Below are positions 34,197 through 48,002 of a stretch of DNA of 64,000 bases, in pieces (the stretch's first letter is position 1; each line of letters begins with the position of its first letter). The stretch is from Vibrio litoralis DSM 17657 (GTDB lineage Bacteria > Pseudomonadota > Gammaproteobacteria > Enterobacterales > Vibrionaceae). Location of the stretch: positions 310,001 to 374,000 of the forward strand of contig NZ_KE384566.1 of NCBI RefSeq assembly GCF_000426765.1, given 5' to 3'. Position numbers and translations under genes: made by a program. Under the pieces are notes generated by a model. It had not been told where the DNA came from. It saw only the letters and a list, made by a program, of their open reading frames with translations, and searched no databases.

Positions 34197-35051
34197 TTAC
34201 TTCGAAAAATTCTCACACGCATACATGGTGTTTTCAATTAGGCTTGCTACCGTCATTGGGCCAACGCCACCCGGAACAGGCGTAATGTGGCTGGCATTGT
34301 CTTTCGCAACATCGTATTCCACATCGCCAATCAGTTTGCCGTTTTCCATGCGGTTAATACCCACATCGATCACAATTGCGCCTTTCTTAATCCAAGCACC
34401 CGGAATAAAGTTTGGTTTACCTACCGCTACAACCAGTAGATCTGCTTGACGTACATGGCCTTCAAGATCTTTAGTAAAGCGGTGACAGGTAGTGGTAGTA
34501 CAACCCGCTAGCAATAACTCTAGTGTCATTGGGCGGCCAACAATATTTGAAGCGCCAACCACGACAGCATGTTTGCCGCGAGTATCGATGTTGTAACGCT
34601 CTAGTAGAGTGATAATACCTTTTGGGGTACATGAACGTAGTTTAGGAATACGTTGAGATAAACGGCCTACGTTGTATGGGTGGAAACCATCGACATCTTT
34701 TTCAGGGTGGATAGTTTCTAAAACTTTAGTGCTATCAATGCCCGCAGGCAGAGGTAGTTGAACTAGGATGCCATCAATTTCAGGATCATTGTTAAGCTGC
34801 TCAACCATCTCAAGCAATTCTGCTTCTGTGGTGGTAGTTGGTAAATCATAAGATTTAGAAACAAAGCCTACTTCTTCACAAGCGCGACGCTTACTTCCAA
34901 CATAAACTTGAGAGGCTGGATCGCTGCCTACTAGTACAACAGCAAGGCCTGGCGCACGTAAACCCGCTTCAACACGAGCCTGAACACGAGCTTTTACTTC
35001 CGAACGAACGGTTTGAGATATTAACTTTCCATCAATAATTTGAGCAGTCAT
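34197..35051 (-). CDS. folD: Bifunctional methylenetetrahydrofolate dehydrogenase/cyclohydrolase
   Basis: A 284-residue cytosolic enzyme interconverting 5,10-methylene-THF and 10-formyl-THF with NADP. The catalytic Tyr/Lys are in [11 protein letters not shown], and [11 protein letters not shown] and [13 protein letters not shown] are signatures. I start at ATG 35051 ([12 protein letters not shown]); 20 more codons upstream are open but unlike the family. Together with purU it makes two one-carbon genes in the window. Confidence 0.97.
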
Positions 35052-35257
35052 GGTTTTCCTTACTATCCTCATTAGACTAGCAGCAGTAGACAACGCGGCG
35101 TATTGTCGCAAATAACGTGATCAATATCTATAACGCAAACGTTTGCCAATAAGGTTTATTTTTCATTTTTAACAAAAAGGAAACCAGCTCTAATAATTGG
35201 CTGAAATGAACAATGCCTTTTTTTTCAGCACTTAAGCCACAATCCACCATAAAGCCA

Positions 35258-35285
35258 TTGACCTAACTCATTCATCTCGTATAAT
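35258..35285 (+). promoter_or_regulatory. Promoter of tRNA-Arg
   Basis: TTGACC (35258-35263) and a perfect TATAAT (35280-35285) are spaced by 16 bases, 12 bases before the tRNA. The C-rich stretch TCCCC after the -10 box resembles a stringent-control discriminator. Confidence 0.75.
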
Positions 35286-35297
35286 TCCCCACTCAAA

Positions 35298-35374
<77 letters not shown>

Positions 35375-35384
35375 TTATTCAAAG

Positions 35385-35422
35385 AAAAGCCTTGTAAATC
35401 ATGTATTTACGAGGCTTTTTCT
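35385..35422 (+). terminator. Terminator after tRNA-Arg at island left end
   Basis: A 15 bp stem AAAAGCCTTGTAAAT (35385-35399)/ATTTACGAGGCTTTT (35405-35419) followed by T. It lies inside the island, so the element supplies a replacement terminator for the tRNA it interrupts. Confidence 0.8.
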
Positions 35423-35426
35423 TTTT

Positions 35427-35470
35427 CTGCCGTGCCTATGCCGTGCCGCTCAAATTAAGTTTCGTTAAAT
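35427..35470 (+). repeat. Left arm-type repeat of the integrase
   Basis: Two TGCCGTGCC units separated by TA, preceded by C and followed by G (35427-35448), are repeated without change at 44871-44892. A second shared block, TTTCGTTAAAT, follows both (35460-35470 and 44924-44934). The pairs have the same orientation at the two island ends, as expected of arm-type binding sites. Confidence 0.7.
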
Positions 35471-35615
35471 AATCATACGAACGTACCCATCCTAAAAAAT
35501 CTTTGTTAATTCCACAATAGCTATAACAAATGAGCACCTTTTCGCAAATTTAGCCTGATCATTACTCAATACCATCATTATTCGGTAATTTGTTGTTATC
35601 ACTTGGAATATAGCA

Positions 35616-36353
35616 ATGATTGATATGGCGAAGTTTTTATCTAAATCTCAACAGCATGAATTGAAAAGTTTAGGTTTGTCCGTTCTTCAGGTTGAAGAGT
35701 GCGAAAGTCTACTAAAACAAGTTCCTGCTATCCCTGAATTAAAATCAATTAAGACCGCAATTCAATTACTCGGTAAAGTTCAAAGCCTACTCGATGACGT
35801 TCAAGACAAAGATCCCCGTTCTTATTTTGAAATGGCCGATCTTCTAAACGATAGCTACCCGTTAGATGACAAACCAGTTGAGAGTATTCAAAAGCAATTA
35901 AAAGCGTTTATTGAACGTCAGAAGGGCGTTTATGTATTCGATAGTGATTTGCATACTGGAAACCAGTCTTTAAACGTGACAACGCCGGAAAGCCGCAATT
36001 ATTATCGTTATGAAGTGCTAACTAAGCTTTGGAAGGATTGGTCGAAAGAGATTAAACTTTCTCGCTCTAGTGAGTTTATTCTATTTCTTACCGTCTGCTT
36101 AGAAGGCAGCTATTCAGAAAAAGCAGCGAATCGGGTTTATACCAACTACAAACGTTATTACCAAGGTAAGTCGATTGCAGTAGAGGATGTATTAGATTCA
36201 AACCAACCATTCAATGACCTTGAATTAAAGATCACTTACAAGTCTGTGAACGGTGAAAAGCCGAGAGTAGAAACTCGAAAAACGACTTTTCCAAATCTCG
36301 AAAAATCAGCTTTAAACGAGCAAATCAATAAGCTTAAAAAACAGCGAAATTAA
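35616..36353 (+). CDS. Island protein of unknown function
   Basis: A 245-residue soluble, mostly helical protein that I do not recognise. The N-terminal third is leucine- and glutamine-rich and could form a coiled coil (SQQHELKSLGLSVLQVEE). The middle has an aromatic, basic part (RNYYRYEVLTKLWKDW), and the end is lysine-rich (NEQINKLKKQRN). There are no membrane segments or clear catalytic motifs. The start could be ATG 35616 or ATG 35625 (MAKFLSKSQQ). It is the first gene inside attL. Its stop codon overlaps that of the convergent next gene (TTAA at 36350-36353). Confidence 0.75.
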   Translation: MIDMAKFLSKSQQHELKSLGLSVLQVEECESLLKQVPAIPELKSIKTAIQLLGKVQSLLDDVQDKDPRSYFEMADLLNDSYPLDDKPVESIQKQLKAFIERQKGVYVFDSDLHTGNQSLNVTTPESRNYYRYEVLTKLWKDWSKEIKLSRSSEFILFLTVCLEGSYSEKAANRVYTNYKRYYQGKSIAVEDVLDSNQPFNDLELKITYKSVNGEKPRVETRKTTFPNLEKSALNEQINKLKKQRN

Positions 36354-37369
36354 CATGTAAGTTTTTCACCTTTGAGTGTGGTGTAATCAAAACTAAATTG
36401 ATGCTCAATTGGGTTGTTACTGCACACACCAATGATTCGTTTATTAAACGGTATCCCTTTTGCTTGGAGATAAATTCGATGTGAGCAAATAGGACATTTA
36501 CCAGTATAAACCCTCACACATAACTTTCTGATTGTACTTATATGTTCACTATTTGGTTCATGCAGTTCATAGCGTAAGGTTGCTGCTTTAAGACGAAGCG
36601 GAAGCATCCAATCAGGCAATAGAGCTATATTGAAATTAATCAGTGAGAATAAGTAATGAAAGCATAGGCAAAATATAGAGCTATAGATAAGTAAGCCTAC
36701 AATGATGCTGGAGTTATAAGGAATGTCATAACTTAAACTAAGCCAGAATAAGATGACTGAAATCATCAGCGCTAATACGGGGCTAATGGTTAAAAGTAAT
36801 ACAGGTAAACGATATCTTTGCATATCGATATCATTAAGCCAACGAGACCAAATAGGTAACTTAGGTGTGGACTCGATATGGTAACTAACTACTGTTGAAT
36901 TTAGCTTATTTTCATCATTTAGAGATAAATCGGGCTTCTTTAATTCTATATCGTCAATAGGCCGAGCTATAAAACGGTATGAGGATTGATTTCCTTTACC
37001 GCCACTTGTTTGCGTTTTCTCTATTGAAGGAATGACGGCTGCGCCTGTATCGTGTGCAATTTCAACTAATCGGCTGTTTACTTCATCAAGACGTTTTGTG
37101 ACTTCATTGTAAAGTCGGTTTATCTCTTTACCTTGATAAAAGTTAGATTGTTTTTGGTTTAATTCACTGAGCTTTTCCGCTAGTTCTTTTGTTGAAAAGA
37201 AGCACTCATCAATTTTCTCAGCTTCTAAGGCTGGGCAGGTTTGAGTTAACTGTAATAAGCCTGTAAATACACTCCAGCAATTATTGCTTTTATCCTTATT
37301 GTTGTATTCATCCCAAAATATTTCAGCGACTTTGATCGCTTCATTTAGTTGTTTAATATCCGTATTCAT
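36350..37369 (-). CDS. Island membrane protein with C-terminal zinc-ribbon-like motif
   Basis: A 339-residue protein that I do not recognise. It begins with a soluble, coiled-coil-prone part (about 1-150, EINRLYNEVTKRLDEVNSRL). Two hydrophobic hairpin helices follow (about 185-250: LLTISPVLALMISVILFWLSL and IIVGLLIYSSIFCLCFHYLF). The C-terminal domain has CPICSHRIYL and a later GVCSNN, possibly a metal-binding ribbon. I start at MNTDIKQ (37369) rather than eight codons upstream. The membrane plus coiled-coil layout could fit an effector of an island-borne defence module, but this is only a guess. Confidence 0.75.
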   Translation of the reverse strand: MNTDIKQLNEAIKVAEIFWDEYNNKDKSNNCWSVFTGLLQLTQTCPALEAEKIDECFFSTKELAEKLSELNQKQSNFYQGKEINRLYNEVTKRLDEVNSRLVEIAHDTGAAVIPSIEKTQTSGGKGNQSSYRFIARPIDDIELKKPDLSLNDENKLNSTVVSYHIESTPKLPIWSRWLNDIDMQRYRLPVLLLTISPVLALMISVILFWLSLSYDIPYNSSIIVGLLIYSSIFCLCFHYLFSLINFNIALLPDWMLPLRLKAATLRYELHEPNSEHISTIRKLCVRVYTGKCPICSHRIYLQAKGIPFNKRIIGVCSNNPIEHQFSFDYTTLKGEKLTC

Positions 37370-37514
37370 TTGTCGAATCCATCCTCCGTCCAAAAGGGAT
37401 AATACAGGGTAATCCCCCTTTATACCCTATATCTATCAGTGTTTTGAGAGCATCTTCAAGTTGACCGCAAAGAATGTGACTTTGCATAAAATCAATCAAC
37501 TTGAGGAAAGCAAA

Positions 37515-38528
37515 ATGAACGAATTAAATACAATGGCATATGGGCTAAAAGATGAAAATGTTGTTTACATTGATGAGGTTCAGAGGGGGCTAGAGTGTGA
37601 AGCAAAATGTATAAGTTGTGGGGGAGCATTAATTGCGAAAAAAGGTGATGTGAAAGTCCATCACTTTGCTCATCATAATGGAGATGGAGAGAGTTGTAAC
37701 GAGTCTGTATTACATCAACTTAGTAAGCAAATTATTGAATGGGAATGCTTAGTTTCGACACCTAACTTAGAGATTAATGTTGAAGGTTATGATATTAGCG
37801 ATCAAGTCCATAAAAAGTCACATATCGAAGAATCGAAAGTGTTAACCGTGGAAAGTGTTTCACTAGAATTAGCTTCTATCGGGTTTATTCCTGATGTGAC
37901 ATGTAATGCATTAGGTAAAAAGTTGTATATAGAAATTGTGGTGAGTAATGATGTCTCAGAGGAAAAGCTAGAGAAAGTAAAGTTAGACGGCACTCCAATG
38001 TTGGTCATTGATATGTCTGACTATTCAGCAATGGATACGCTTGATACTTTAAAGCAAGGAGTCATTTATGATGCCCCAAGATACTGGGCATATCACCCTG
38101 ATCATGAAGCAATGAAAGTACACTTAGAAAATGACCTTAGATTTGAAGTTTCAATACTTGATGAAAAGATTATCTCCGTTGTTTCAAATAAATTAGGGCT
38201 AGTTTCTAAATCAGAATTGCTAAAACCAAAGACAAATAGTGAACTGATTGTTTTAGGGTATAACTCAGCTTATGGCTATTCAAAAAAGAATAATCGAGAT
38301 TTTGATTTTTCGACTTTGTTGGTAGCGAAGCCAATACAATCCACTGGCTCAAGTAATTATACAATTCGTTCTTGTGGAGGCTATGAATTAACCCAAATAG
38401 CATTCAATGAGGAGTTAATACCAGAATTGGAAAAACTCAGATTCCCTTGCTTGCTAGAGCTAGATGTAAGTGGTTCATTTTTAGGTGGGCGAGTTCAGAG
38501 CATGGTGACTAACTTTAAAGTCGTCTAG
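37515..38528 (+). CDS. CoiA-like protein (zinc finger plus nuclease-like core)
   Basis: A 337-residue protein resembling competence protein CoiA. The N-terminal zinc-finger-like part has KCISCGGALIAKKGD (Cys32, Cys35) and VHHFAHH (49-54). It continues with a segment that looks like a PD-(D/E)xK nuclease core: GFIPDVTCNALGKKLYIEIVVSN around residues 118-140. The usual lysine after the glutamate is not evident, so activity is uncertain. CoiA acts in DNA uptake and recombination in Gram-positive bacteria; proteins of this type also occur in mobile islands. The ATG at 37515 follows GAGGAAAGC. A terminator hairpin follows the gene. Confidence 0.7.
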   Translation: MNELNTMAYGLKDENVVYIDEVQRGLECEAKCISCGGALIAKKGDVKVHHFAHHNGDGESCNESVLHQLSKQIIEWECLVSTPNLEINVEGYDISDQVHKKSHIEESKVLTVESVSLELASIGFIPDVTCNALGKKLYIEIVVSNDVSEEKLEKVKLDGTPMLVIDMSDYSAMDTLDTLKQGVIYDAPRYWAYHPDHEAMKVHLENDLRFEVSILDEKIISVVSNKLGLVSKSELLKPKTNSELIVLGYNSAYGYSKKNNRDFDFSTLLVAKPIQSTGSSNYTIRSCGGYELTQIAFNEELIPELEKLRFPCLLELDVSGSFLGGRVQSMVTNFKVV

Positions 38529-38541
38529 AGCGATAATATTC

Positions 38542-38580
38542 AGCTAAAAGCAAACATATTTATGGTTGCTTTTAGCTTTT
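38542..38580 (+). terminator. Terminator after the CoiA-like gene
   Basis: Perfect 12 bp stem AGCTAAAAGCAA (38542-38553)/TTGCTTTTAGCT (38566-38577) followed by TTT. Confidence 0.75.
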
Positions 38581-38758
38581 AGTAAAAGCATAAATTTCCA
38601 TCCGTACCTGATTAAAAATACCATTTTACAATTACTTACGATCCATTGGTTCATCATTACTTTAAAAACCCGTACCCCTCAATTGATTGTCTGTAAGCTC
38701 CATAGATCTTAATTTTGTTTCATCCAATTCGGGATAACACTATTAAGGAAGATTAAAC

Positions 38759-38974
38759 ATGGAAAATACAAACATTAACTTAGGTCGCTTTGGTAACAAA
38801 CTTAACCGTAAAAAGGCGGCGGAATATCTAGGGGTAACAGAAGGCACTTTAGCCGTTTGGGCAAGTACTGGCCGTTATCATTTACCTTTCATCAAAGTCG
38901 GTCGTAAGGTTTATTACACCTTAAAAGATCTCGATACCTTTATTGAAGGTCGAATTTTCACTCATACCGCTTAA
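38759..38974 (+). CDS. AlpA/excisionase-like HTH protein
   Basis: A 71-residue DNA-binding protein with a winged-helix MerR/AlpA-type fold: NRKKAAEYLGVTEGTLAVWASTGRYHLPFIKVGRKVYYTLKDLDTFIEGR. In P4-like islands such proteins control integrase or act as excision factors. It has a good ribosome site (AAGGAAGATTAAAC). vapE follows after 26 bases, so they are likely one operon. Confidence 0.85.
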   Translation: MENTNINLGRFGNKLNRKKAAEYLGVTEGTLAVWASTGRYHLPFIKVGRKVYYTLKDLDTFIEGRIFTHTA

Positions 38975-39000
38975 TTCATGGGTAAAGATGGAGATAAATA

Positions 39001-40269
39001 ATGATGGAAATGAGTGAACAAGTTTTCGAACTGAAACCAAACGTACAGGCGCAATGTTATTTCCCTGATTTAGCGTTGAATGGCAAACCGATCAGCACGC
39101 TTGATAACTTTGCTGTTTTAACCAAATCATTAGGAATAACGCCTTCTGTTAACCAAATGAATAATGAAATTGAGCTATTGAAAGATGGCTCACCTTTAGA
39201 TATCAGTTTTGAAAGAAAGCGCAGTATGCTTTTAAGTGAATGTCTAAAAGCTGGCTTACCTAAATCAACGATTGATGATCATTTAACAGCGTTAGCAGAG
39301 AACAACGAATATCATCCTTTTAAGCAATATTTAAACCGAAGTGAATGGGATGGTATTGAAAGGGTTAAGCCTGTTATTGCCGCAATGAACAGTAAAGATC
39401 CGGAGTTGGCCGAAATAGTGATGACTAAGTTTTTTATTTCGGTTGTCGCTGCGGTTTATGAACCGAGATTTAGCTCAAAATTAGTACCAGTGCTGCAAGG
39501 TGGGCAGTCATTTAGAAAAACCGCCTTTATAAAGCGGTTTGCCGATGTGTTTACAGGTTCGTTTCTCGAAGGGGCAGAGCTTAACCCTGATAATAAAGAT
39601 TCGGTTCTAACCTGCATTCGAAGCGTGATTGTTGAGCTAGGAGAGTTAGAACGAACCTCAAAAAATAACCAAGGTGCATTGAAAGCTTTTTTAACCAGAG
39701 AAGTCGATACGGTTAGGCCGCCTTATGGTCGGTCTGATATCAAAAAGAAAAGGCAAACCGTTTACATTGCAACCGTAAACGGAACCGAATTTTTACGGGA
39801 TGATACAGGTTCAAGCCGATACGCTGTTATTGAGCTTCTAAACCAAATAAACCTAGATGAAATTAACCGAATATTAGGTTGGCAATATAACAACGGACGA
39901 CTAAACCAAATCGAAACCGAAAAGCTTAAGCAGTTTTGGTTAGAGATTCGGTTTAAATATGCGAATGGTGAGTCGTGGGAGCTAACCGATGCCGAAAGAG
40001 TCAGAGTAGCCGAAGTGAACAAAGCGCACGATTTCAAAGGCAATTGGTATGAGCTTTTATACGATAAGTTTATCGATGTAGAAATGGAAAGCCGAGGCTT
40101 TGAATGGATGACGGCAACCGATGTGTGCAGTTATTGCGATATAGGCAAAAACCAAGTGAGAGCCATTGGTAAAGCCCTTAAGAAATTGTTTGAAGATAAC
40201 CTAATCGAAAGCAAGCGGGGTCGGGCAAATAAAACCTTCTATAAAATTCCAACTGTTACACCATTTTGA
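39001..40269 (+). CDS. VapE-type P-loop helicase/ATPase
   Basis: A 422-residue protein with a virulence-associated E domain, the superfamily 3-like ATPase found in phage and satellite replication modules. Walker A is present but unusual (QGGQSFRKTAF, residues 166-176; families usually show GxQGxGKS). Walker B is VIVELGELE (209-217). Typical VapE text follows: KAFLTREVDTVRPPYGRS, KKRQTVYIATVNGTEFLRD. It has no primase domain at the N-terminus, where about 100 residues are of unclear type. It probably drives replication of the excised island. A strong terminator comes straight after. Confidence 0.88.
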   Translation: MMEMSEQVFELKPNVQAQCYFPDLALNGKPISTLDNFAVLTKSLGITPSVNQMNNEIELLKDGSPLDISFERKRSMLLSECLKAGLPKSTIDDHLTALAENNEYHPFKQYLNRSEWDGIERVKPVIAAMNSKDPELAEIVMTKFFISVVAAVYEPRFSSKLVPVLQGGQSFRKTAFIKRFADVFTGSFLEGAELNPDNKDSVLTCIRSVIVELGELERTSKNNQGALKAFLTREVDTVRPPYGRSDIKKKRQTVYIATVNGTEFLRDDTGSSRYAVIELLNQINLDEINRILGWQYNNGRLNQIETEKLKQFWLEIRFKYANGESWELTDAERVRVAEVNKAHDFKGNWYELLYDKFIDVEMESRGFEWMTATDVCSYCDIGKNQVRAIGKALKKLFEDNLIESKRGRANKTFYKIPTVTPF

Positions 40270-40272
40270 ACA

Positions 40273-40302
40273 ACAGCCTTGCCATGTCGCAAGGCTGTTT
40301 TG
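40273..40302 (+). terminator. Terminator after vapE
   Basis: Perfect 10 bp stem ACAGCCTTGC (40273-40282)/GCAAGGCTGT (40289-40298), 6-base loop, then TTTGCTTT. It separates vapE from the RT operon, so the RT genes need their own promoter. Confidence 0.85.
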
Positions 40303-40310
40303 CTTTAAGT

Positions 40311-40356
40311 CATTAACCTGTTTAACCATTTGAGTTATTGGTTAAACAGGTTAATG
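40311..40356. repeat. Perfect 18 bp inverted repeat upstream of the reverse transcriptase
   Basis: Arms CATTAACCTGTTTAACCA (40311-40328) and TGGTTAAACAGGTTAATG (40339-40356) are exact complements around a 10-base loop (TTTGAGTTAT). There is no T-run, and a real vapE terminator already exists just before. It ends 136 bases before the RT start. It could be an operator, a replication origin element near vapE, or part of a structured RNA linked to the RT. Confidence 0.9.
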
Positions 40357-40491
40357 GGGATTTTGTAGATTTAGGAGAATGATTAGTATAAATGTCATTT
40401 TATTTATTACTCAGCATCGTAACACCTTTATTTTATAGAGTAGTTTGGATAAAGTAGATCCTTAGCATCATCGACTTAGATAGGATATCTT

Positions 40492-42144
40492 TTGAATACA
40501 TTCAAAGCAGAACAACTTCTAACATTTCCTATTGATACAAATGCAACATTAAAGCATCTACGACAGGACATGAAAGATGACTGGTTTTATGATGCAATTA
40601 GGTATGAAGATCTACTCTCTAATAAGACTGACTTGCAACGTGTTTTAGCTGAAAATCTTAATATCAACCATGGTAATTATAAATCAGGTGACAAAGCTAT
40701 TTATGATGTGCCAAAACGTGCATTGGGTCTACGCTATACTTTAGAAACAGATTTTTATGACCGCTTTCTATATCAGGCTATATGTACTTTTTTAATGCCT
40801 TATTTCGATCCTCTTTTATCTAATCGAGTTTTTAGCCATCGATATAATAAATATGGTAATTCAAAGTATCTTTTTAAGCATCGTATTGAATTGTGGAATA
40901 CATTTGAAAATATTAGCTATGTTTCACTAATTGATGATAAAACACTTTTAATAACAGACCTTCTCAATTATTTTGAACAAATAAATATTGAATCAATTGA
41001 AAGTTCATTCATTAGAATGATAGCAGACCTTAATGTATCAGGGGCAGAAAAAAACACGATTAGAAGTGCTATTAGCACTTTGAAAGTTTTATTAGAGAAA
41101 TGGTGTTATAACGATAAGCATGGATTGCCTCAAAATCGTGATGCTTCATCATTTATTGCGAATGTCGTTCTTGATTCTGTTGACAAAAAAATGGTAAAGA
41201 AAGGATATGATTATTTTCGTTACGTTGATGATATTAGGATTATATGTAATGATGAAATGGAAGCAAGGAGAGCTTTGAATGACCTGATTTTTGAATTAAG
41301 AAAGTTAGGGTTGAATATAAATTCCAAAAAGACAGAAATACTCAATAAACATAGTGGAAATAAAGAGGATTTTTTTCCTAGTAAAGATGACACTATGACT
41401 TTAATTGATACTATGTGGAGATCTAAAAGTAAGAAAGTTATCGCAAGATCGATTCCAATTCTTTTTGAGTTTTTAAAAAATCAGATCGACGAGGGAAAAA
41501 CTCAAAGTAGACCTTTCCGTTATTGTATAAATAGATTTAAGACCTTGATATCATCTAATTTATTTGAGGCTAAATCAGTTTTAGCTAGAGAGATTGCAGA
41601 TACATTAATTGGGGAGCTAGGGAAACAGCCGGTTTCCACAGATCAATTTTGTAAACTCTTAATGGATTTGGACTTGTCAAATGAGCAAAATAAAGTCATA
41701 TCTAATTATATAGTAAATGAAAATGTAGCGATATATGGTTGGCAAAATTATAATTTAATACTACTTATGGCTCATAATAAATATTTTGATGATAATTTGA
41801 TTGATTTTTGCAAGCTGAAAATTGAAAAGAAAATTAAAAGCCCAGAAACACCAGCATGTTTTATTTATTTGGCATCAATTGGCTTGCAGAATGAGGTTGA
41901 AAAGTTTATTGATTCTTTTGATAACACTTGGCCATATCAACATCAACGATACTTTTTAATAGCACTTCAAGACACATCACCAAAAAAATTACAACCAATG
42001 TTTGGTAAGGTAGGATATCGTCTAAAAGGGACCGTTAAAAGATTAAAGGAAAATAAACTATTTAAAGGCGAGTCAATATACCTTAAGGATTTTAACTCGA
42101 CTTTAATTCAAGAAATATATCATGAGATATCACCATATGAGTAA
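40492..42144 (+). CDS. Reverse transcriptase (UG/Abi-like, defence-associated type)
   Basis: A 550-residue RNA-directed DNA polymerase. RT motifs are in order: A, LLITDLLNYFEQI (Asp156); B, GLPQNRDASSFIANVVL (211-227); C, YFRYVDDIRII (YVDD, 244-247); D, LGLNINSKKTEIL (272-284). Residues from about 300 to 550 carry no maturase or endonuclease motif and look all-helical, like the alpha-repeat C-termini of UG/Abi reverse transcriptases. The downstream gene overlaps by 8 bases. It starts with TTG after AGGATATC; the next Met (residue 27) would cut off conserved N-terminal residues. Very A+T-rich (12 G/C in the 60 bases at 41701). The exact RT class cannot be set without a tree. Confidence 0.9.
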   Translation: MNTFKAEQLLTFPIDTNATLKHLRQDMKDDWFYDAIRYEDLLSNKTDLQRVLAENLNINHGNYKSGDKAIYDVPKRALGLRYTLETDFYDRFLYQAICTFLMPYFDPLLSNRVFSHRYNKYGNSKYLFKHRIELWNTFENISYVSLIDDKTLLITDLLNYFEQINIESIESSFIRMIADLNVSGAEKNTIRSAISTLKVLLEKWCYNDKHGLPQNRDASSFIANVVLDSVDKKMVKKGYDYFRYVDDIRIICNDEMEARRALNDLIFELRKLGLNINSKKTEILNKHSGNKEDFFPSKDDTMTLIDTMWRSKSKKVIARSIPILFEFLKNQIDEGKTQSRPFRYCINRFKTLISSNLFEAKSVLAREIADTLIGELGKQPVSTDQFCKLLMDLDLSNEQNKVISNYIVNENVAIYGWQNYNLILLMAHNKYFDDNLIDFCKLKIEKKIKSPETPACFIYLASIGLQNEVEKFIDSFDNTWPYQHQRYFLIALQDTSPKKLQPMFGKVGYRLKGTVKRLKENKLFKGESIYLKDFNSTLIQEIYHEISPYE

Positions 42145-43687
42145 AGGAAAAGTGGTTTTTCTTGTTTATCAAAAAGACTTTTCAGAAAGTGGAAAAGACC
42201 GATATTTTATATTTGATAATGAAAGTCTTTTTGAGGTAACAGTACAAGAACTCGTTAGTTATAAATGTTTCATTGTTACACATGACTTTTGGTTGATTTC
42301 AAGCTCTATATATAAAAGTGCAAATGTATTACCGAATAAGATTATTGATGTTGTACTTTTAGCAAAGATTGTATCTGGAGTTAAATCTGTTACTAGTGAT
42401 ACTCAACCATGGGATATATCAAAAACTATCAAACCAATATTCTCAAAATCTGAGGACTTTAATTATTATATGGATGTGTATTATAGGAGGAAAAGTTTTG
42501 ATTTTGACATATATCTTCTTTTTGCACATAAGCTCTGTGAATATTTTGAAAGTTTAAGTGAAACTTCCTATCAACAAGAGGAAACGAGTAGGTTTTATAG
42601 TTTAGAATTACCAGTATATAATTTAATGACTTTAGCTGTTTGTAGAGGGATAAAAATAGATAATGAAACTTTTCGAGAGCACAAGGAAAACTTACAATTA
42701 GATTTTTATCGAGAATTAAAAAAGTTTTCTGAGAAGCATGATGTATTGTATGAGTTACCAAAAGAAGGTGATATTCGGGAAAAGTTAATTACATTGAATT
42801 ATCATGTTGATGGCGTGTCTATAGATTTTCTACTTGATTTCATACCCTCCATAGATGGATATACGGATGATCTTCGCCGTTTGCAGAAGATAAATAAAAG
42901 CTATCAAATATTTAATTCAATATCGAGCTCCTCTAATAGATTGCATCCTATAGTTGAATCTCATTGGACATCAACATCTCGAATTTATTATAAATCTCCT
43001 GCAATTCAAAATATTGCTAAAAAGTATAGGGATATTTTTATACCAGATGCAGGTAAGATATTGAGTTACGTCGATTATGATCAATTTGAGATCGGAGTTA
43101 TGGCTTATATTTCAAAAGATCCTATGATGATTGAAATATATACGAGAACAGATGCTTATAGTGATTTTGCTATTAAAGTTTTTAACGATAAAAATAAACG
43201 AAAAAGTGCCAAGGTAATATTTCTTTCATATGTTTATGGTATGTCAATGGATAATATAAAGAAATCTACAATAAGCATGGGAGGGAACTCTGGCAAGCTT
43301 CAAGATTACTTTGAAAAATTTGAGGTTTTTGAAAGTTGGAAACAAAGTGTTTGGAAAGAATTTGAGAGTGAAGGTCGAATTGGTACTATCAAGTCTAACT
43401 ATTTAAAAAGGGCAGGTGAAGGTAAGTTAACAGAAAAAGAAAAAAGAATTTCTGTAAATCACGTTATTCAAGGTACAGCAACTTATATTTTTAAGCTTGC
43501 TCTGTTAGAAGTTTCAAAAGTTGATGATATAGATATATTGATCCCAATGCATGATGCGGCACTTATTCAGCATACTGAAAAAGTAAGTTCTGAAAAATTT
43601 AAAGAAATATTTGAAAATGTTATGACAGAAGTATTACCAGGTATTCAAGGAAAAGCTTCATTAGAAGATTTCTATATTTCAGAATAG
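42137..43687 (+). CDS. Family A DNA polymerase (PolA-like) paired with the RT
   Basis: A 516-residue polymerase with Pol I-type palm and fingers. Visible are LELPVYNLMTLAVCRGIKID (155-174), TSRIYYKSPAIQNI, motif A YVDYDQFEIG (Asp313, steric-gate Glu318), motif B RKSAKVIFLSYVYG (Arg355, Lys359, Tyr367), NHVIQGTATYIFK and motif C MHDAAL (Asp473). Both metal aspartates are kept. The 5' nuclease is absent and the N-terminal 150 residues look like a decayed 3'-5' exonuclease. The residue matching Phe762 of E. coli Pol I is Leu363, and HDE is HDA. I start at ATG 42137, coupled to the RT stop; ATG 42122 is an alternative. The 3' end overlaps the integrase gene by 16 bases. Confidence 0.9.
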   Translation: MSKGKVVFLVYQKDFSESGKDRYFIFDNESLFEVTVQELVSYKCFIVTHDFWLISSSIYKSANVLPNKIIDVVLLAKIVSGVKSVTSDTQPWDISKTIKPIFSKSEDFNYYMDVYYRRKSFDFDIYLLFAHKLCEYFESLSETSYQQEETSRFYSLELPVYNLMTLAVCRGIKIDNETFREHKENLQLDFYRELKKFSEKHDVLYELPKEGDIREKLITLNYHVDGVSIDFLLDFIPSIDGYTDDLRRLQKINKSYQIFNSISSSSNRLHPIVESHWTSTSRIYYKSPAIQNIAKKYRDIFIPDAGKILSYVDYDQFEIGVMAYISKDPMMIEIYTRTDAYSDFAIKVFNDKNKRKSAKVIFLSYVYGMSMDNIKKSTISMGGNSGKLQDYFEKFEVFESWKQSVWKEFESEGRIGTIKSNYLKRAGEGKLTEKEKRISVNHVIQGTATYIFKLALLEVSKVDDIDILIPMHDAALIQHTEKVSSEKFKEIFENVMTEVLPGIQGKASLEDFYISE

Positions 43688-44844
43688 TCAACAGAAAGAT
43701 GCGCATAAACACTAGCGGTAACGCCAATATTTGAGTAGCCTAAAAGTCGGCTTGTTGCTTGAAGTGAACCGCCAGAAGTAACCTGATATGTGGCTAAGGT
43801 TCGCCTTAAATCGTGTACCTGTAGGTTTTTACTCGCATCATTCGGATCATATAAACCGGCCCGTTTGGTTACTCTATTCCAAAATCCGCCCATTCCGCTT
43901 TTATCCGCAATATGACCTGTCGCACTTCGAGTACTAGGGAAAACATATTGTTGGCCTTTTTCCGCTTCGAGTGAGCGTCTTTCTAAGATCTTCATTGCTT
44001 CATGAGAGATGGGAACAACATGCGGTTTCTTGGTTTTGATTTTATGGACAGGAATGATCCACGTTCGAGCATCTTTGTTTATTTCGCTCCATTCCATCGC
44101 TAATACATTGGACTTACGTTGGCCTGTTAATAGCAACAATAATATACAGTCTTGATAAATGGGTTCTTCTTGTTCTAGTGAATCGAGTAGGCGACAAAGT
44201 TCCTCTTTTGATAGGGTACGCTCACGCCTAAAGACACTTTCATCAATTTTCTTTAAGGTTGCAAAAGGGTTTTTCTCAATATCAGCACGGTTGAACATCG
44301 ACTTAAGCAAGGTTAACGAATGGTTGTGCAAGCTATAGCCTTTCGTGGCTAATATTTTTTGAAGGAAGGACTTTGCTTCATCTTTGGCAAAATTATCAAT
44401 GGTACGCTTGCCAAGCTTAGGTTTGATATGAAGTCTGTATAAAGTCTCATGGCCTTTTAGGCTGCTTTCTCTGCGTTTACCTGCTTTGATATCGAGACGA
44501 AATGACGCTTCATAATATTCAAATAGCTGATCAAAAGTTGTGTAATTACGGGCTGTACGTTTTTCTTCATTCGGATTAACGCCTGATGCTATTTTATGAG
44601 CGGCCTCTCTAGCTAACTTCCTTGCTTGTTCAACAGTAATTTCAGGAAATCGGCCTAATGTGATTTGCAGGTTTTTCCCGTTTACCTTTTGAATAAAATT
44701 AAAGGTTTTAGTGCCACTTTTTGTTACTTCTAGCCCTAATCCTTGAACGCTGCTAGAGCCTCCTGAATCTCTATATCTTTTTCTTGTTGATGCTGGCTCG
44801 ATGTTTACGAGTGAATTTTTTGTAAAATTGAAGCTGTAAACCAT
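43672..44844 (-). CDS. int: Tyrosine integrase (P4-like, DUF4102 N-terminus)
   Basis: A 390-residue site-specific recombinase. The N-terminal arm-binding DUF4102 domain (KNLQITLGRFPEITVEQARKLA) is followed by a core-binding domain. The catalytic domain has Arg in LLTGQRKSNVLAMEW, His-x-x-Arg in VHDLRRTLATY, and the nucleophile Tyr in ASVYAHLS. It sits against attR and points into the island. Its start is only about 170 bases from the attR core. It should catalyse integration into tRNA-Arg and, with the AlpA-like protein, excision. Confidence 0.95.
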   Translation of the reverse strand: MVYSFNFTKNSLVNIEPASTRKRYRDSGGSSSVQGLGLEVTKSGTKTFNFIQKVNGKNLQITLGRFPEITVEQARKLAREAAHKIASGVNPNEEKRTARNYTTFDQLFEYYEASFRLDIKAGKRRESSLKGHETLYRLHIKPKLGKRTIDNFAKDEAKSFLQKILATKGYSLHNHSLTLLKSMFNRADIEKNPFATLKKIDESVFRRERTLSKEELCRLLDSLEQEEPIYQDCILLLLLTGQRKSNVLAMEWSEINKDARTWIIPVHKIKTKKPHVVPISHEAMKILERRSLEAEKGQQYVFPSTRSATGHIADKSGMGGFWNRVTKRAGLYDPNDASKNLQVHDLRRTLATYQVTSGGSLQATSRLLGYSNIGVTASVYAHLSVDYSEI

Positions 44845-44870
44845 ATTTGAACTCTCTTAATACTCATTTC

Positions 44871-44934
44871 CTGCCGTGCCTATGCCGTGCCGATGGCGTT
44901 AAAAATAGGCTATTTTGGTCAATTTTCGTTAAAT
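44871..44934 (+). repeat. Right arm-type repeat of the integrase
   Basis: Same CTGCCGTGCC-TATGCCGTGCCG block as at 35427-35448, followed by the shared TTTCGTTAAAT (44924-44934). It lies in the integrase leader, so integrase binding here could also repress its own gene (inference). Confidence 0.7.
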
Positions 44935-45017
44935 CTAAGGTAACGAAGAATACATTGTAACGATATGATTATTAAGATAAATTAATGTGAGTTAAGCCGA
45001 GTTAAAAGAACCCTTAA

Positions 45018-45037
45018 AATCCTGTAGGGCGTGCCAT
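45018..45037 (+). repeat. attR core
   Basis: Exact copy of the last bases of tRNA-Arg (35356-35375). The upstream part of the tRNA is missing, so this marks the right end of the island. Confidence 0.9.
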
Positions 45038-45074
45038 ATACAAAGAAACCCCAGATAACTTAATCAGTTGTCTG
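45030..45074 (+). repeat. 45 bp direct repeat, copy 1 (tRNA-downstream terminator)
   Basis: From CGTGCCATATAC to GTTGTCTG; identical to 47917-47961. It covers the final tRNA bases and most of the terminator that originally followed tRNA-Arg. Confidence 0.9.
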
Positions 45075-45083
45075 GGGTTTTTT
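45047..45083 (+). terminator. Original terminator of tRNA-Arg (copy 1)
   Basis: Stem AACCCCAGATAACT (45047-45060)/AGTTGTCTGGGGTT (45066-45079), one G-U, followed by TTTTG. Confidence 0.8.
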
Positions 45084-45101
45084 GTATTCTATTTATAATC
45101 T

Positions 45102-45653
45102 TTATACTGCTTCGTCAGCCATTTCTATCGCAGCCGGAAAGAGAATTGTATCTTCTACATGTATGTGATTGATTAAATCTTGGCAAAATTCGTCACAGAC
45201 TTTATAGCAACGTTGCCAGGTTTGGCAGGCTTCTTCTGGAGCTTGGAAGTTCTGAGTCACTTGCTGCAAGGCCACTACAATTTGATCAGCTTCATTATGC
45301 TCATGGGTCATGACGCGTATAGGGTTACCAATATGACCAAAGCAGGTTTGTTGAGGTGTTTGTGTGGCAAGACCTCTAATTGCTGGGAATAAAATTTGCT
45401 CTTCTTTGTATAAATGTGGAGTGAGTTCATTCACTAAAGCATGAATTAATGGTGTCAGCTTCTGAATAGTCTCAGATTCTTCTCCATGTACTCGTAGCAG
45501 TTTATCTGCCATTTCAATTAATTGTGGCCCGGTTTCTCGAATATATTGGTGGTGGGTAGATTCAATCAAATCAGCAAGTTGATCTGCTGGCATGGATTCG
45601 AGTTGGCTTAATTGATCTTGAGTTAGGTTTGTTTTTCCACATTGTAAGCTCAT
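45102..45653 (-). CDS. Iron-sulfur centre repair protein (RIC/YtfE-like hemerythrin)
   Basis: A 183-residue di-iron protein of the hemerythrin fold that restores nitrosative- or oxidatively damaged Fe-S centres. Iron ligands are seen in ESTHHQYIRETGP, NELTPHLYKEEQILFPAI, VMTHEHNEAD and NHIHVEDTILFPAA. The short N-terminal ScdA_N domain of full YtfE is absent, except for QCGKTNLTQDQLSQLESM, which may be a remnant. I start at ATG 45653, preceded by GGAG; an ATG four codons earlier lacks a ribosome site. An NsrR-like site lies upstream, so NO should induce it. Confidence 0.87.
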   Translation of the reverse strand: MSLQCGKTNLTQDQLSQLESMPADQLADLIESTHHQYIRETGPQLIEMADKLLRVHGEESETIQKLTPLIHALVNELTPHLYKEEQILFPAIRGLATQTPQQTCFGHIGNPIRVMTHEHNEADQIVVALQQVTQNFQAPEEACQTWQRCYKVCDEFCQDLINHIHVEDTILFPAAIEMADEAV

Positions 45654-45718
45654 AATATGCTCCATTAATCAGTGCAGTGTTCATCATAACGCTTCAATGA
45701 AGTATGGCCATCGGCTTT

Positions 45719-45741
45719 AAGTGGTATTTTAAATGCAACTT
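45719..45741. promoter_or_regulatory. NsrR-like box upstream of the RIC gene
   Basis: A 23-base imperfect palindrome AAGT-GGTATTTTAAATGC-AACTT resembles the NO-sensor NsrR motif (AAGATGYATTT spaced by one base from its mirror). It is about 66 bases before the RIC start on the minus strand. RIC genes are frequent NsrR targets. Agreement is good but not exact. Confidence 0.55.
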
Positions 45742-45911
45742 AATGTTTGTTGATTTAAATCAAAATAAATGGTAACCGCTATTGTTCTTGTTGAGATTAT
45801 TCTTGGTATGTTAGTTATGCTGAGACTAACAGTAGCCTGAAGTCATCTAGCGAATAAATCCACAGTTCTTCGTTATTAGATGGCTTTGGTGAGTGAATTT
45901 AAAGCACGCAC

Positions 45912-45955
45912 ATAACAACGTTTAAGGCAGATTCGTAACGCGTGGCATTTTTACT
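45912..45955 (+). repeat. Partial attC-like (superintegron) sequence
   Basis: ATAACAACGTTTAAGGC, then AGATTCGTAACGCGTGGCAT followed by T-rich DNA, closely resembles the 5' half of Vibrio integron attC repeats (AACAAACTGTTTAAGAGGG, then ATTCGCAACGCGTGGCATTT, from memory). The 3' half is missing and the GNAT gene begins 11 bases later. Confidence 0.6.
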
Positions 45956-45966
45956 AAGGATATAAT

Positions 45967-46464
45967 TTGAAAATAAGACATTTAGAAGAATCGGATCATC
46001 AAGATTTACATGGAATTTATAGTTTCCGAGAAGTGTTAATTAATACTTCTCAGCTCCCTTGTTTGAGTTCTTCGCAAGTATCCAATCTATTTGATTCGCC
46101 AAATCAATATACTCTTGTTGCTGAAGTAGGCGGTAAAGTTGTCGGTCATGTAACGCTATTTCTAACTACTAAGATTAGGGATAAGCATACTGCTGGAATA
46201 GCTATTGCGGTTCATCCTGATAATCATGGGGCAGGGATAGGGAAAACTTTGATGAGTGAGGCAATTGACCAAGCAGATAATTGGTTGAACTTGGTCCGTA
46301 TAGAGCTAGAAGTGCATTCTGATAACCCATCAGCACAAGCTCTATATGAGAAAGTCGGGTTTAGGGTCGAAGGTATAAAGCGCCTCAGTACTTTTAAATA
46401 TGGCAAGTATATCGATATGATTTTGATGTCTAGAATTAACCCAGTATACGATGTAAACACATAA
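45967..46464 (+). CDS. GNAT family N-acetyltransferase
   Basis: A 165-residue acetyl-CoA-dependent acetyltransferase. Motif A is IAIAVHPDNHGAGIGKTLM (the pyrophosphate-binding Q/RxxGxG/A is represented by HGAGIG). The C-terminal half has VRIELEVHSDNPSAQALYEKVGFRVEG, typical of RimI/PhnO-like and antibiotic- or polyamine-acting members. The substrate is unknown. TTG start after AAGGATAT. It sits between attC-like sequences, the setting of integron cassettes, where GNAT genes are common. Confidence 0.88.
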   Translation: MKIRHLEESDHQDLHGIYSFREVLINTSQLPCLSSSQVSNLFDSPNQYTLVAEVGGKVVGHVTLFLTTKIRDKHTAGIAIAVHPDNHGAGIGKTLMSEAIDQADNWLNLVRIELEVHSDNPSAQALYEKVGFRVEGIKRLSTFKYGKYIDMILMSRINPVYDVNT

Positions 46465-46579
46465 TAAATGGCTTAAAAGTGTGGCTAACATTTGTCATTT
46501 CTGGTTCGGTTGAGACCAGTGAATACGGTGGCTTTGTTTAGGTTTCGTAGTTTAGCCGCACTTTAGCAAAACATTAGTT
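46462..46579 (+). repeat. attC-like imperfect hairpin after the GNAT gene
   Basis: AAAAGTGTGGCTAAC (46475-46489) mirrors GTTTAGCCGCACTTT (46550-46564), and the flanks TAATAAATGGCTT and AGC...CATTAGTTA extend the pairing with bulges. The roughly 118-base bulged hairpin directly after a short gene is the architecture of an integron attC site. The consensus end heptamers are not intact, so it may no longer recombine. Confidence 0.5.
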
Positions 46580-46594
46580 ACACAGGGAGGCTTC

Positions 46595-47368
46595 GTGGAA
46601 GAATTATCAGGCGGTAGAGAATCTGCAATATATCGAGATGGTGAAGTCGTCTATCGACCTCTTCAGCCATGGAGCTCTACTATTCATCTTATTTTGAAGC
46701 ATCTTGAGCGAGCAAAGGTAAATGAAAGTCCAAAATTTCTTGGTATAAGTCAAGACCAAGAAATCCTAAGTTTTATGGCAGGTAATACCTATAATTATCC
46801 GCTAGTTGGCGCAATCGCAACAAATGAATCACTTATTTCAGCGGGTCAGTTACTACGAAAAATACATGACTCAACAGCTTCACTCTTGGAGCAAATCGAT
46901 GTCAACGAACACCAATGGATGTTAGACCCGAGAGAACCATTTGAGGTTATCTGTCATGGTGACTTTACCCCGTACAATGTTGCTCTATCGGAGAATACAG
47001 TCGTTGGTGTGTTTGACTTCGATACTGCGCACCCAGCCTCAAGAATATGGGATTTAGCATATTCAGTTTATTGCTGGTCTCCTTTTAAAACTGACAGTCA
47101 TGATAAGCTAGGCACAATCTCAGAACAGGTGACTAGAGCTAAGTTGTTCTGTGACAGTTACGGCGCCACTGAATCAGAAAGAGAGCAATTAGCCGATGCT
47201 ATGGTTCAGCGATTACAGGCTTTAGTATTCTTCATGCGTAGTGAAGCCGAAAATGGCAATGAATCCTTTGTTGAAAACATAGAGCAAGGTCATCTTCAAG
47301 CTTATTTAAATGACATAGAATATATCACTGAAAATAAACAAAAAATTGAGTGCACATTGTGCAACTAA
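46595..47368 (+). CDS. Aminoglycoside phosphotransferase-family kinase-like protein
   Basis: A 257-residue protein of the APH/choline kinase fold. The catalytic loop is VICHGDFTPYNV and the metal-binding DFD motif is VVGVFDFDTAHPASRIWDLAY. The N-lobe is short (ESAIYRDGEVVYRPLQPWS), suggesting a compact ATP site. The true substrate is unknown, and it should not be read as a proven resistance gene. GTG start 4 bases after GGGAGG. The gene lies between attC-like sequence and another cassette-like gene. Confidence 0.82.
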   Translation: MEELSGGRESAIYRDGEVVYRPLQPWSSTIHLILKHLERAKVNESPKFLGISQDQEILSFMAGNTYNYPLVGAIATNESLISAGQLLRKIHDSTASLLEQIDVNEHQWMLDPREPFEVICHGDFTPYNVALSENTVVGVFDFDTAHPASRIWDLAYSVYCWSPFKTDSHDKLGTISEQVTRAKLFCDSYGATESEREQLADAMVQRLQALVFFMRSEAENGNESFVENIEQGHLQAYLNDIEYITENKQKIECTLCN

Positions 47369-47416
47369 CAAAGCGACTGTAGCCTTATAAGCCAATCCAG
47401 CCTAAGAGGGTGAAAA

Positions 47417-47836
47417 ATGGAAATTGAGTACAAAGTAAACCAACCGATATCAGTTGCACAATTTGTGAATTTGCTAAAGAAAACATCGCTTGGTGAACGT
47501 CGGCCACTAGAAAATGAAGCCACAATTAAAGGCATGCTTGAAAACTCGAATCTAATTGTTACTGCATGGATAAAAGATCAGCTTGTTGGTGTGGCACGTT
47601 CTGTAACAGATTTTCATTATTGCTGTTACTTATCAGATCTTGCGGTTGATGAAAGCGTTCAATCTAGTGGTATTGGTCAATATCTTATCTTGGTCACTAA
47701 AGAAGAATTGAGCCCCAGTTGTAAAGTGATTCTGCTGTCAGCTCCTCAGGCTCAAGACTATTATCCAAAAATTGGCTTTGAGCCTCATAATAGTGCTTGG
47801 GTTTTATCCAGTGTTGAACAGTTAAAAATGAGTTAG
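47417..47836 (+). CDS. Small GNAT family acetyltransferase
   Basis: A 139-residue acetyltransferase with motif A LSDLAVDESVQSSGIGQYLIL and a C-terminal YYPKIGFEPHNSAWVL, typical of small GNAT cassette proteins. The substrate is unknown. Ribosome site GAGGGTG. The 48 bases between this and the APH-like gene start with TAACAAAGCGACTG, again like the opening of an attC site but truncated. Confidence 0.85.
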   Translation: MEIEYKVNQPISVAQFVNLLKKTSLGERRPLENEATIKGMLENSNLIVTAWIKDQLVGVARSVTDFHYCCYLSDLAVDESVQSSGIGQYLILVTKEELSPSCKVILLSAPQAQDYYPKIGFEPHNSAWVLSSVEQLKMS

Positions 47837-47895
47837 TTTAAGTCTATCTATTGCCTTAACTTGACCCAAAATAATCCAGCGTAGACTGAAACAAT

Positions 47896-47915
47896 TCGGC
47901 TTGTTGCTTAAAGTG
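47896..47915 (-). pseudogene. Fragment of an integrase 3' region
   Basis: These 20 bases differ at one position from 43747-43766 inside the island integrase gene and would encode the same LQATSR residues on the minus strand. The fragment abuts the repeated tRNA-end sequence at 47917. It is read as the remains of a deleted related integrase. Short length makes this tentative; the position next to the repeat is the main support. Confidence 0.5.
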
Positions 47916-47916
47916 T

Positions 47917-47961
47917 CGTGCCATATACAAAGAAACCCCAGATAACTTAATCAGTTGTCTG
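47917..47961 (+). repeat. 45 bp direct repeat, copy 2
   Basis: Identical to 45030-45074. After it the two copies diverge (AGGTTTTTG against GGGTTTTTTG). It still forms most of the tRNA-Arg terminator and marks the junction with the ordinary chromosome. Confidence 0.9.
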
Positions 47962-48002
47962 AGGTTTTTGTTTTTAAGCTGTATGGAATTAAAACCAGTT
48001 CT

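Follow-up and report, generated by a model that had tools for sequence, protein, structure and literature searches.

A UG9-type reverse transcriptase coupled to a family A DNA polymerase in a tRNA-Arg island of Vibrio litoralis: a candidate two-polymerase defence unit

A stretch of 64,000 nucleotides of Vibrio litoralis DSM 17657 (contig NZ_KE384566.1; hereafter the window) contains a 9.7-kb tRNA-Arg island, which holds a reverse transcriptase (RT) of the UG9 type followed by a family A DNA polymerase (PolA). Computational analysis established the family of the RT, its pairing and coupling with PolA and the boundaries of the unit, found no conserved RNA in the flanks, and revealed a likeness of the RT model to class 1 RTs. 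The pair, cargo of the island, is proposed as a candidate defence-associated reverse transcriptase (DRT) system, possibly a protein-primed and probably RNA-free unit of two polymerases that makes duplex DNA; the probability assigned to this reading is about 45%.

Identity, coupling and boundaries of the pair

The RT gene (40492..42144, plus strand) has a TTG start and encodes 550 amino acids. A profile search with PADLOC-DB 2.0.0 matched residues 6-550 of 550 to RT_UG9_small with 784.7 bits (E 1.3e-236), while the runner-up models, UG9_large and UG21, reached 314.4 and 179.2 bits; judged by sequence, assignment to the UG9 family is near certain. Other classes of RT were considered and rejected: the score for a group II intron RT was 74.9 bits against a curated cut-off of 300, the two retron models gave 39.1 against 235 (St85) and 19.3 against 600 (retron TIR), and a CRISPR-type RT was ruled out, UG9 being by far the best-scoring model. 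The motif A residue Asp156 and the YVDD motif (residues 244-247) were invariant in alignments of 7 and 8 sequences. According to the accessible text of a 2014 report, UG9 belongs to a possible Abi lineage (PMC4244168).

The second gene (42137..43687, plus strand) encodes an RT-associated family A DNA polymerase with a predicted Klenow-like fold, which matched the PADLOC model RTasPolA over nearly its full length (563.1 bits, E 1.3e-169). Homologues indicated that its start is the ATG at 42137 rather than 42122, and this start results in an 8-base overlap with the RT gene. Both catalytic aspartates, D318 of motif A (YVDYDQFE) and D478 of motif C (PMHDA; P0002 numbering), were kept in 10 of 10 aligned sequences, the motif and codon counts excluding L026 and L005, whose PolA runs off the end of its contig. 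At what we take to be the Phe762 position (E. coli numbering), PolA carries a Leu. The protein is too small to include a 5' nuclease, its N-terminal part gave no usable alignment with the exonuclease domain of the host Pol I, and the proofreading DxE motif was not seen on inspection by eye; PolA thus seems, from its sequence, to be devoid of proofreading. The predicted model (pLDDT 72.0) is Klenow-like, with a Z score of 27.2 over 378 residues. In the UG9 PolA of L026 (4705-6522 in genome G1130), some 90 extra residues are inserted in frame between the O-helix and motif C, as located by eye, and the only Pfam match of the protein is DNA_pol_A.

PolA lies directly downstream of the RT and overlaps it by 8 bases in 12 of 12 loci (the window, L001-L005, L017-L021 and L026); two further Dinoroseobacter plasmid records (H3 and H4) stand outside this count, and 14 loci were found altogether. 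In all 12, the ATG of PolA is placed inside the last RT codons, which read ATGAGTAA, ATGATTGA or ATGATTAA. The RTs form two clades that share about 41% identity (window compared with five of the other clade), and since both share the overlap, the arrangement is old. Among 72,556 plasmid records, the five with an RT match of at least 80% of the query were the same five with a PolA match of at least 80%. The pairing itself is already catalogued, given that PADLOC holds models for both proteins and that the myRT survey of 2021 reports, in its accessible part, a 94% co-occurrence of UG9 with the polymerase model PRK14975 (PMC8934634). Both window proteins match near full length and show the same association, and nothing separates the window pair from it, although the survey describes PRK14975 as a 3'-5' exonuclease/DNA polymerase and no exonuclease motif was seen here.

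An initial annotation, based on the sequence, had described a UG/Abi-type RT with intact motifs and a helical C-terminus, overlapping by 8 bases a PolA-type partner with both catalytic aspartates, the two forming an A+T-rich pair in a tRNA island. This description was borne out in every part, the scores of both proteins being far beyond chance, and neither outcome that it named as refuting occurred: the RT stayed below the group II and retron cut-offs, and the polymerase stood beside it at 12 of 12 loci. Its doubt as to whether the RT class was already catalogued was justified.

The analysis defines the unit and its smallest extent. The pair forms a complete integron cassette of 3,352 nt with a 63-nt leader in Marinospirillum (L002) and Vreelandella (L003), where the cassette ends are complementary over nine bases. 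The attC hairpins of L002 and L003 had fold energies of -22.3 and -19.7 kcal/mol, compared to -8.7 (sd 2.3) and -9.3 (sd 2.3) for shuffles, and these values were equalled by 0 of 500 and 1 of 500 shuffles, respectively. In Saccharospirillum (L001) no intact attC is left, although the first attC box and the start of the cassette are kept. An integron integrase exceeded its cut-off in three genomes, those of L001, L003 and L004, and the genome of L002 had none at E 1e-40. Outside attC, the non-coding space amounts to 62-63 nt before the RT and to 19 nt from the PolA stop on (39 in L001), and the leader measures 62-125 nt wherever the unit is bounded.

Search for a template RNA

Noncoding RNAs (ncRNAs) are used by DRT2, DRT3, DRT9 and DRT10, according to the accessible parts of the literature. 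For the UG9 loci, the 200 nt upstream of the RT were compared between loci, with 200 dinucleotide shuffles per pair, leaving out L003, a near copy of L002, and L017, whose annotated start is inside the gene. No upstream RNA element conserved between UG9 contexts was found in the 20 pairs of this leader test: one pair was strongly similar (L001-L002, the same cassette), two were weakly similar, and 17 had p values of at least 0.095. The RTs compared were 68-79% identical across contexts of the first clade and 70-90% identical in the second. The DRT9 control, with RTs of 50-56% identity, lower than the UG9 pairs, was positive in 3 of 3 pairs (p 0.005, 0.015 and 0.005), and the similar stretch lay immediately before the gene. 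The similarity between the leaders of L019 and L020, whose RTs are 89.5% identical, could be either a remnant or functional.

The control loci were one from a plasmid, one from E. coli and a genus copy. DRT9 relatives were found in 2 plasmid records, 0 phage records and 44 E. coli records; 2 of the latter match the RT gene, and 18 others listed match only a 125-base upstream piece. The DRT9 starts were chosen by the author, and the one used for E. coli gives 499 amino acids, as in the solved chain 9ioa_A; the annotated start of that E. coli record lies earlier.

BLAST of the 300-nt flanks on both sides revealed only short, chance-like matches, aside from the cassette copies, L017-L018 and L020-L021; the match of the last pair is 23 nt long and out of register. 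The idea that the genes themselves conceal an RNA was rejected, the identity at fourfold-degenerate sites being near random (RT 0.302, PolA 0.325) and ranging per 25-codon window from 0.12 to 0.43 in the RT and from 0.12 to 0.67 in PolA, where the top window, 0.67, comprises 9 comparisons and the next, 0.51, comprises 41 (pairs within L001-L003 left out). The perfect 18-bp inverted repeat with a 10-nt loop that follows a VapE-like gene of the island (40311-40356) was also rejected as the RNA of the system, because an imperfect copy, identified by eye, occupies the equivalent site ahead of the cargo start in a sister island (L042). The 125-nt cargo leader of the window (40367..40491, plus strand), delimited by divergence from that island, showed no conserved RNA element, and among six Rfam matches listed for 35000-46000 the tRNA alone reached the gathering score.

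Structural likeness, priming and competing explanations

The predicted RT model (pLDDT 67.3) has a helical C-terminus that matches alpha-solenoids. The best ten Foldseek rows were UG15, DRT4, AbiK and DRT6, and VIA-align gave, for class 1, Z 13.8 over 416 residues for DRT6, 12.8 over 431 for DRT4, 12.7 over 436 for AbiK and 11.8 over 435 for UG15, as well as 12.2 over 367 for Abi-P2 and 11.9 over 334 for AbiA. Alignments to seven rows of DRT6, DRT4, AbiK and UG15 spanned 392-436 residues (Z 11.8-13.8), and five of these reached the last residue, while those to six rows of DRT9 and DRT2 were confined to 180-241 residues in the RT domain and did not pass residue 299. The model therefore offers a good, if not decisive, case that the RT resembles the template-independent class 1 RTs AbiK, DRT4 and DRT6 over nearly its whole length, these likewise combining an RT with an alpha-solenoid and appearing to work with no ncRNA. 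They differ in that their accessible descriptions include no partner polymerase and in that the priming tyrosine is near the N-terminus in AbiK and Abi-P2 (PMC9508834).

Within the accessible accounts, AbiK primes from Tyr44 and Abi-P2 requires Tyr61 (PMC9508834), in DRT9 the probable priming site is Tyr496/Tyr498 of the tail NYDYE (PMC12483538), and priming in DRT10 is probably from a C-terminal Ser or Tyr (PMC12632851). The UG9 RT ends in Tyr-Glu or Tyr-Asp in 12 of 12 loci (SPYE, SEYD or SGYD), with Tyr549-Glu550 in the window. This tail is like that of the class 2 DRT9, in which Tyr is followed by Glu or Asp or is itself last (YNY, YDYE and YNYD in the three homologues compared here), whereas DRT9 requires an upstream ncRNA and aligns with the UG9 RT over the RT domain only. 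Towards the N-terminus, Tyr38 and Tyr63 did not vary among the 7 and the 8 sequences aligned.

We infer a sequence of events in which the RT would start DNA on one of its own tyrosines, with Tyr549 in the tail and Tyr38 in the putative fingers region as candidates, and would make single-stranded DNA with no dedicated ncRNA, in the manner of AbiK and DRT4. Its coupled partner PolA, seemingly devoid of proofreading, would then copy this strand into duplex DNA, and infection would release or stabilise the product, resulting in arrest of cell growth. The initial annotation had proposed cDNA synthesis from an RNA template followed by a second strand; the template part found no support, as no conserved RNA was found in flanks or coding sequence, while second-strand synthesis stands as the likeliest role of the partner. 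The narrower version is an RNA-free, integron-borne defence in which the RT, protein-primed, needs no nucleic-acid template to write the first strand, and a dedicated family A polymerase that does not proofread makes this strand double; it is possible, with the odds against it.

A role in defence is suggested because the RT belongs to the UG/Abi family, the unit is mobile and some neighbours are restriction-modification (R-M) genes or a CRISPR-like array. Six neighbour proteins from five loci were compared with PADLOC, and strong matches were obtained for a type IIG R-M protein by L017 and a type ISP/IIG R-M protein by L021, with weaker ones for an exonuclease by L021 and a protein by L018. 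In the CRISPR-like array of L001 (7451-9573), which starts 267 bases after the pair, a 23-base repeat core occurs 36 times without variation, spaced at a constant period of 60 bases.

Several observations weigh against the proposed protein-primed, RNA-free unit. Motif C of PolA reads HDA and not HDE, and polymerase activity is assumed. The codon of the terminal Tyr doubles as the source of the PolA start, a constraint that accounts for part of its conservation (Tyr, His, Asn or Asp being possible), and for this reason the tail is a lead only. The RT model is mediocre, with pLDDT below 50 at residues 508-550, so that placement of the tail is limited by the model. Group II intron RTs gave a slightly higher Z of 15.0, over the RT domain alone (231-235 residues), and clathrin adaptors, matching nothing but the helical part, reached Z 11, as helical repeats can by themselves give middling values, which is why the class 1 likeness is not decisive. 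Weak leader signals were obtained for L019-L020 (p 0.010) and L020-L021 (p 0.050), L017 and L018 share 58 nt (84%) right behind PolA, and an RNA may act in trans or have no conserved sequence. Finally, 2 of the 6 neighbour proteins (L001 and L028) had no PADLOC match.

The RT could, alternatively, copy its own mRNA, host or phage RNA or a diverged leader, with PolA replacing the RNA by a second strand, partly as in class 2 DRTs. The DRT9-like tail, the two weakly similar leader pairs and the fact that the PADLOC neighbours of UG9 are mostly UG groups with no named DRT type would agree with such RNA templating, which is nevertheless rated as somewhat unlikely: 17 of 20 leader pairs showed no conserved element at 68-90% RT identity while the DRT9 control was positive at 50-56%, the one strong pair represents two copies of a single cassette, the fourfold identities are near random over both genes (0.302 and 0.325), and the leader measures 62-125 nt where the unit is bounded.

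It is unlikely that PolA acts as a regulator or silencer, which would convert or mask the RT product in uninfected cells until inhibition by a phage frees toxic single strands; both polymerase aspartates are kept in 10 of 10 sequences and no exonuclease is recognisable, even though the coupling in 12 of 12 loci would suit this role and RecBCD and ExoI of the host keep the products of DRT3 and DRT9 in check, according to the accessible text of a preprint (PMC13174585). Quite unlikely, in turn, is a contribution of the pair to the replication or repair of its host plasmid or island rather than to anti-phage activity. Plasmid copies do have repC (L017) and PRTRC partition genes (L019) in their vicinity, and the island encodes a VapE-like replication protein, but the cassette form moves with no replicon, and the sister island keeps the VapE-like gene with unrelated sequence after it, on a contig that ends 410 bases on, so that a copy elsewhere is possible.

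Host island, distribution and significance

The island is integrated at a tRNA-Arg gene (35298..35374, plus strand; ARAGORN), the 3' end of which forms the left attachment repeat (35356..35375), an exact 20-bp direct repeat of the right one (45018..45037). Its backbone includes an AlpA/excisionase-like regulator (38759..38974, plus strand; HTH_17 1.1e-9; TIGR01764 1.4e-5, with a score of 25.4 below the cut-off of 28.8), a 71-aa ORF that recurs in L042, and the VapE-like replication gene (39001..40269, plus strand; PF05272 2e-45). The shared backbone ends with a terminator-like hairpin (40272-40299) and the inverted repeat (together 40272..40366). The tyrosine integrase gene (43672..44844, minus strand; PF00589 1.4e-25) overlaps the PolA stop by 16 bases at its 3' end. 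The G+C content is 0.301 in the RT-PolA pair, 0.374 in the remaining island and 0.420 in the window outside it. The sister island, from genome G573 of the same genus, is 87% identical over 35001-40366 and diverges afterwards, its contig ending 410 bases past that point; because homology stops at 40366, the cargo starts at 40367. A search for DNA-level relatives of the island matched 21 phage and 10 plasmid records, and the 20 phage and 10 plasmid matches listed were tRNA-sized pieces. An ORF at 37461-38528 has an N-terminal stretch that is CoiA-like, just below cut-off, and a C-terminal stretch like the RstB protein of CTX phage.

A second copy of the attachment site plus terminator (53 nt, 98%) is found at 47893-47969, preceded by 23 nt (91%) that resemble part of the integrase gene. 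On this basis, a further island may once have stood in tandem with the first and left a remnant at about 45038-47969, a stretch that includes ORFs resembling, by eye, acetyltransferases and phosphotransferases.

UG9 is a rare type. With the window's own genome set aside, searches at E 1e-60 found it in 0 of 368 class-sample, 0 of 195 genus and 0 of 397 phylum-sample genomes, these samples overlapping, and in 3 of 201 genomes of a family sample around one cassette genome, two of which were already known. The loci came from the species genome collection (five), a search that reaches close relatives only, from plasmid records at a coverage of at least 80% (five) and from viral contigs (two). Searches of 5,426 E. 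coli genomes at the DNA level and of 50,697 phage records at the protein level (E 1e-10) gave no match, and a second scan of viral contigs gave no relative. At L028 (787-9000), the UG9 pair adjoins a resolvase-like gene, with RadC-like and relaxase-like ORFs, named by eye, downstream.

Two known systems come close to the pair in joining polymerases, as far as their accessible descriptions go. DRT3 likewise has two polymerases, Drt3a and Drt3b, and its product is reported in a preprint to be double-stranded DNA, making duplex DNA possible as an immune product (PMC13174585); it consists of two RTs and an ncRNA, whereas the second enzyme of the UG9 pair is of family A and no ncRNA was seen. DRT7/UG10 likewise joins an RT to a non-RT polymerase (PMC13213688), which is a fused PrimPol, in contrast to the separate family A protein of the UG9 pair. 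New here are the overlap in 12 of 12 loci, the cassette form, the lack of a conserved upstream RNA, the class 1 likeness and the Tyr-acid tail. No study of the function of the UG9 pair was found in a literature search, the 2022 UG/Abi classification and most preprints lying outside its reach.

Several DRTs work by making unusual DNA, and UG9, a catalogued family with no published function found, has a Klenow-like DNA polymerase as its partner. From the integron copies the exact limits of the unit can be read (3,352 nt), with the prediction that nothing further is required. As a find the pair is ordinary, being catalogued, and it is useful as a case where the question of RNA or no RNA is directly testable. 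If duplex DNA is indeed made with no RNA, the UG9 pair would be a minimal DNA-writing immune module, and it would represent a third RT route to double-stranded DNA beside DRT3 and DRT7, one that is RNA-free and integron-mobile.

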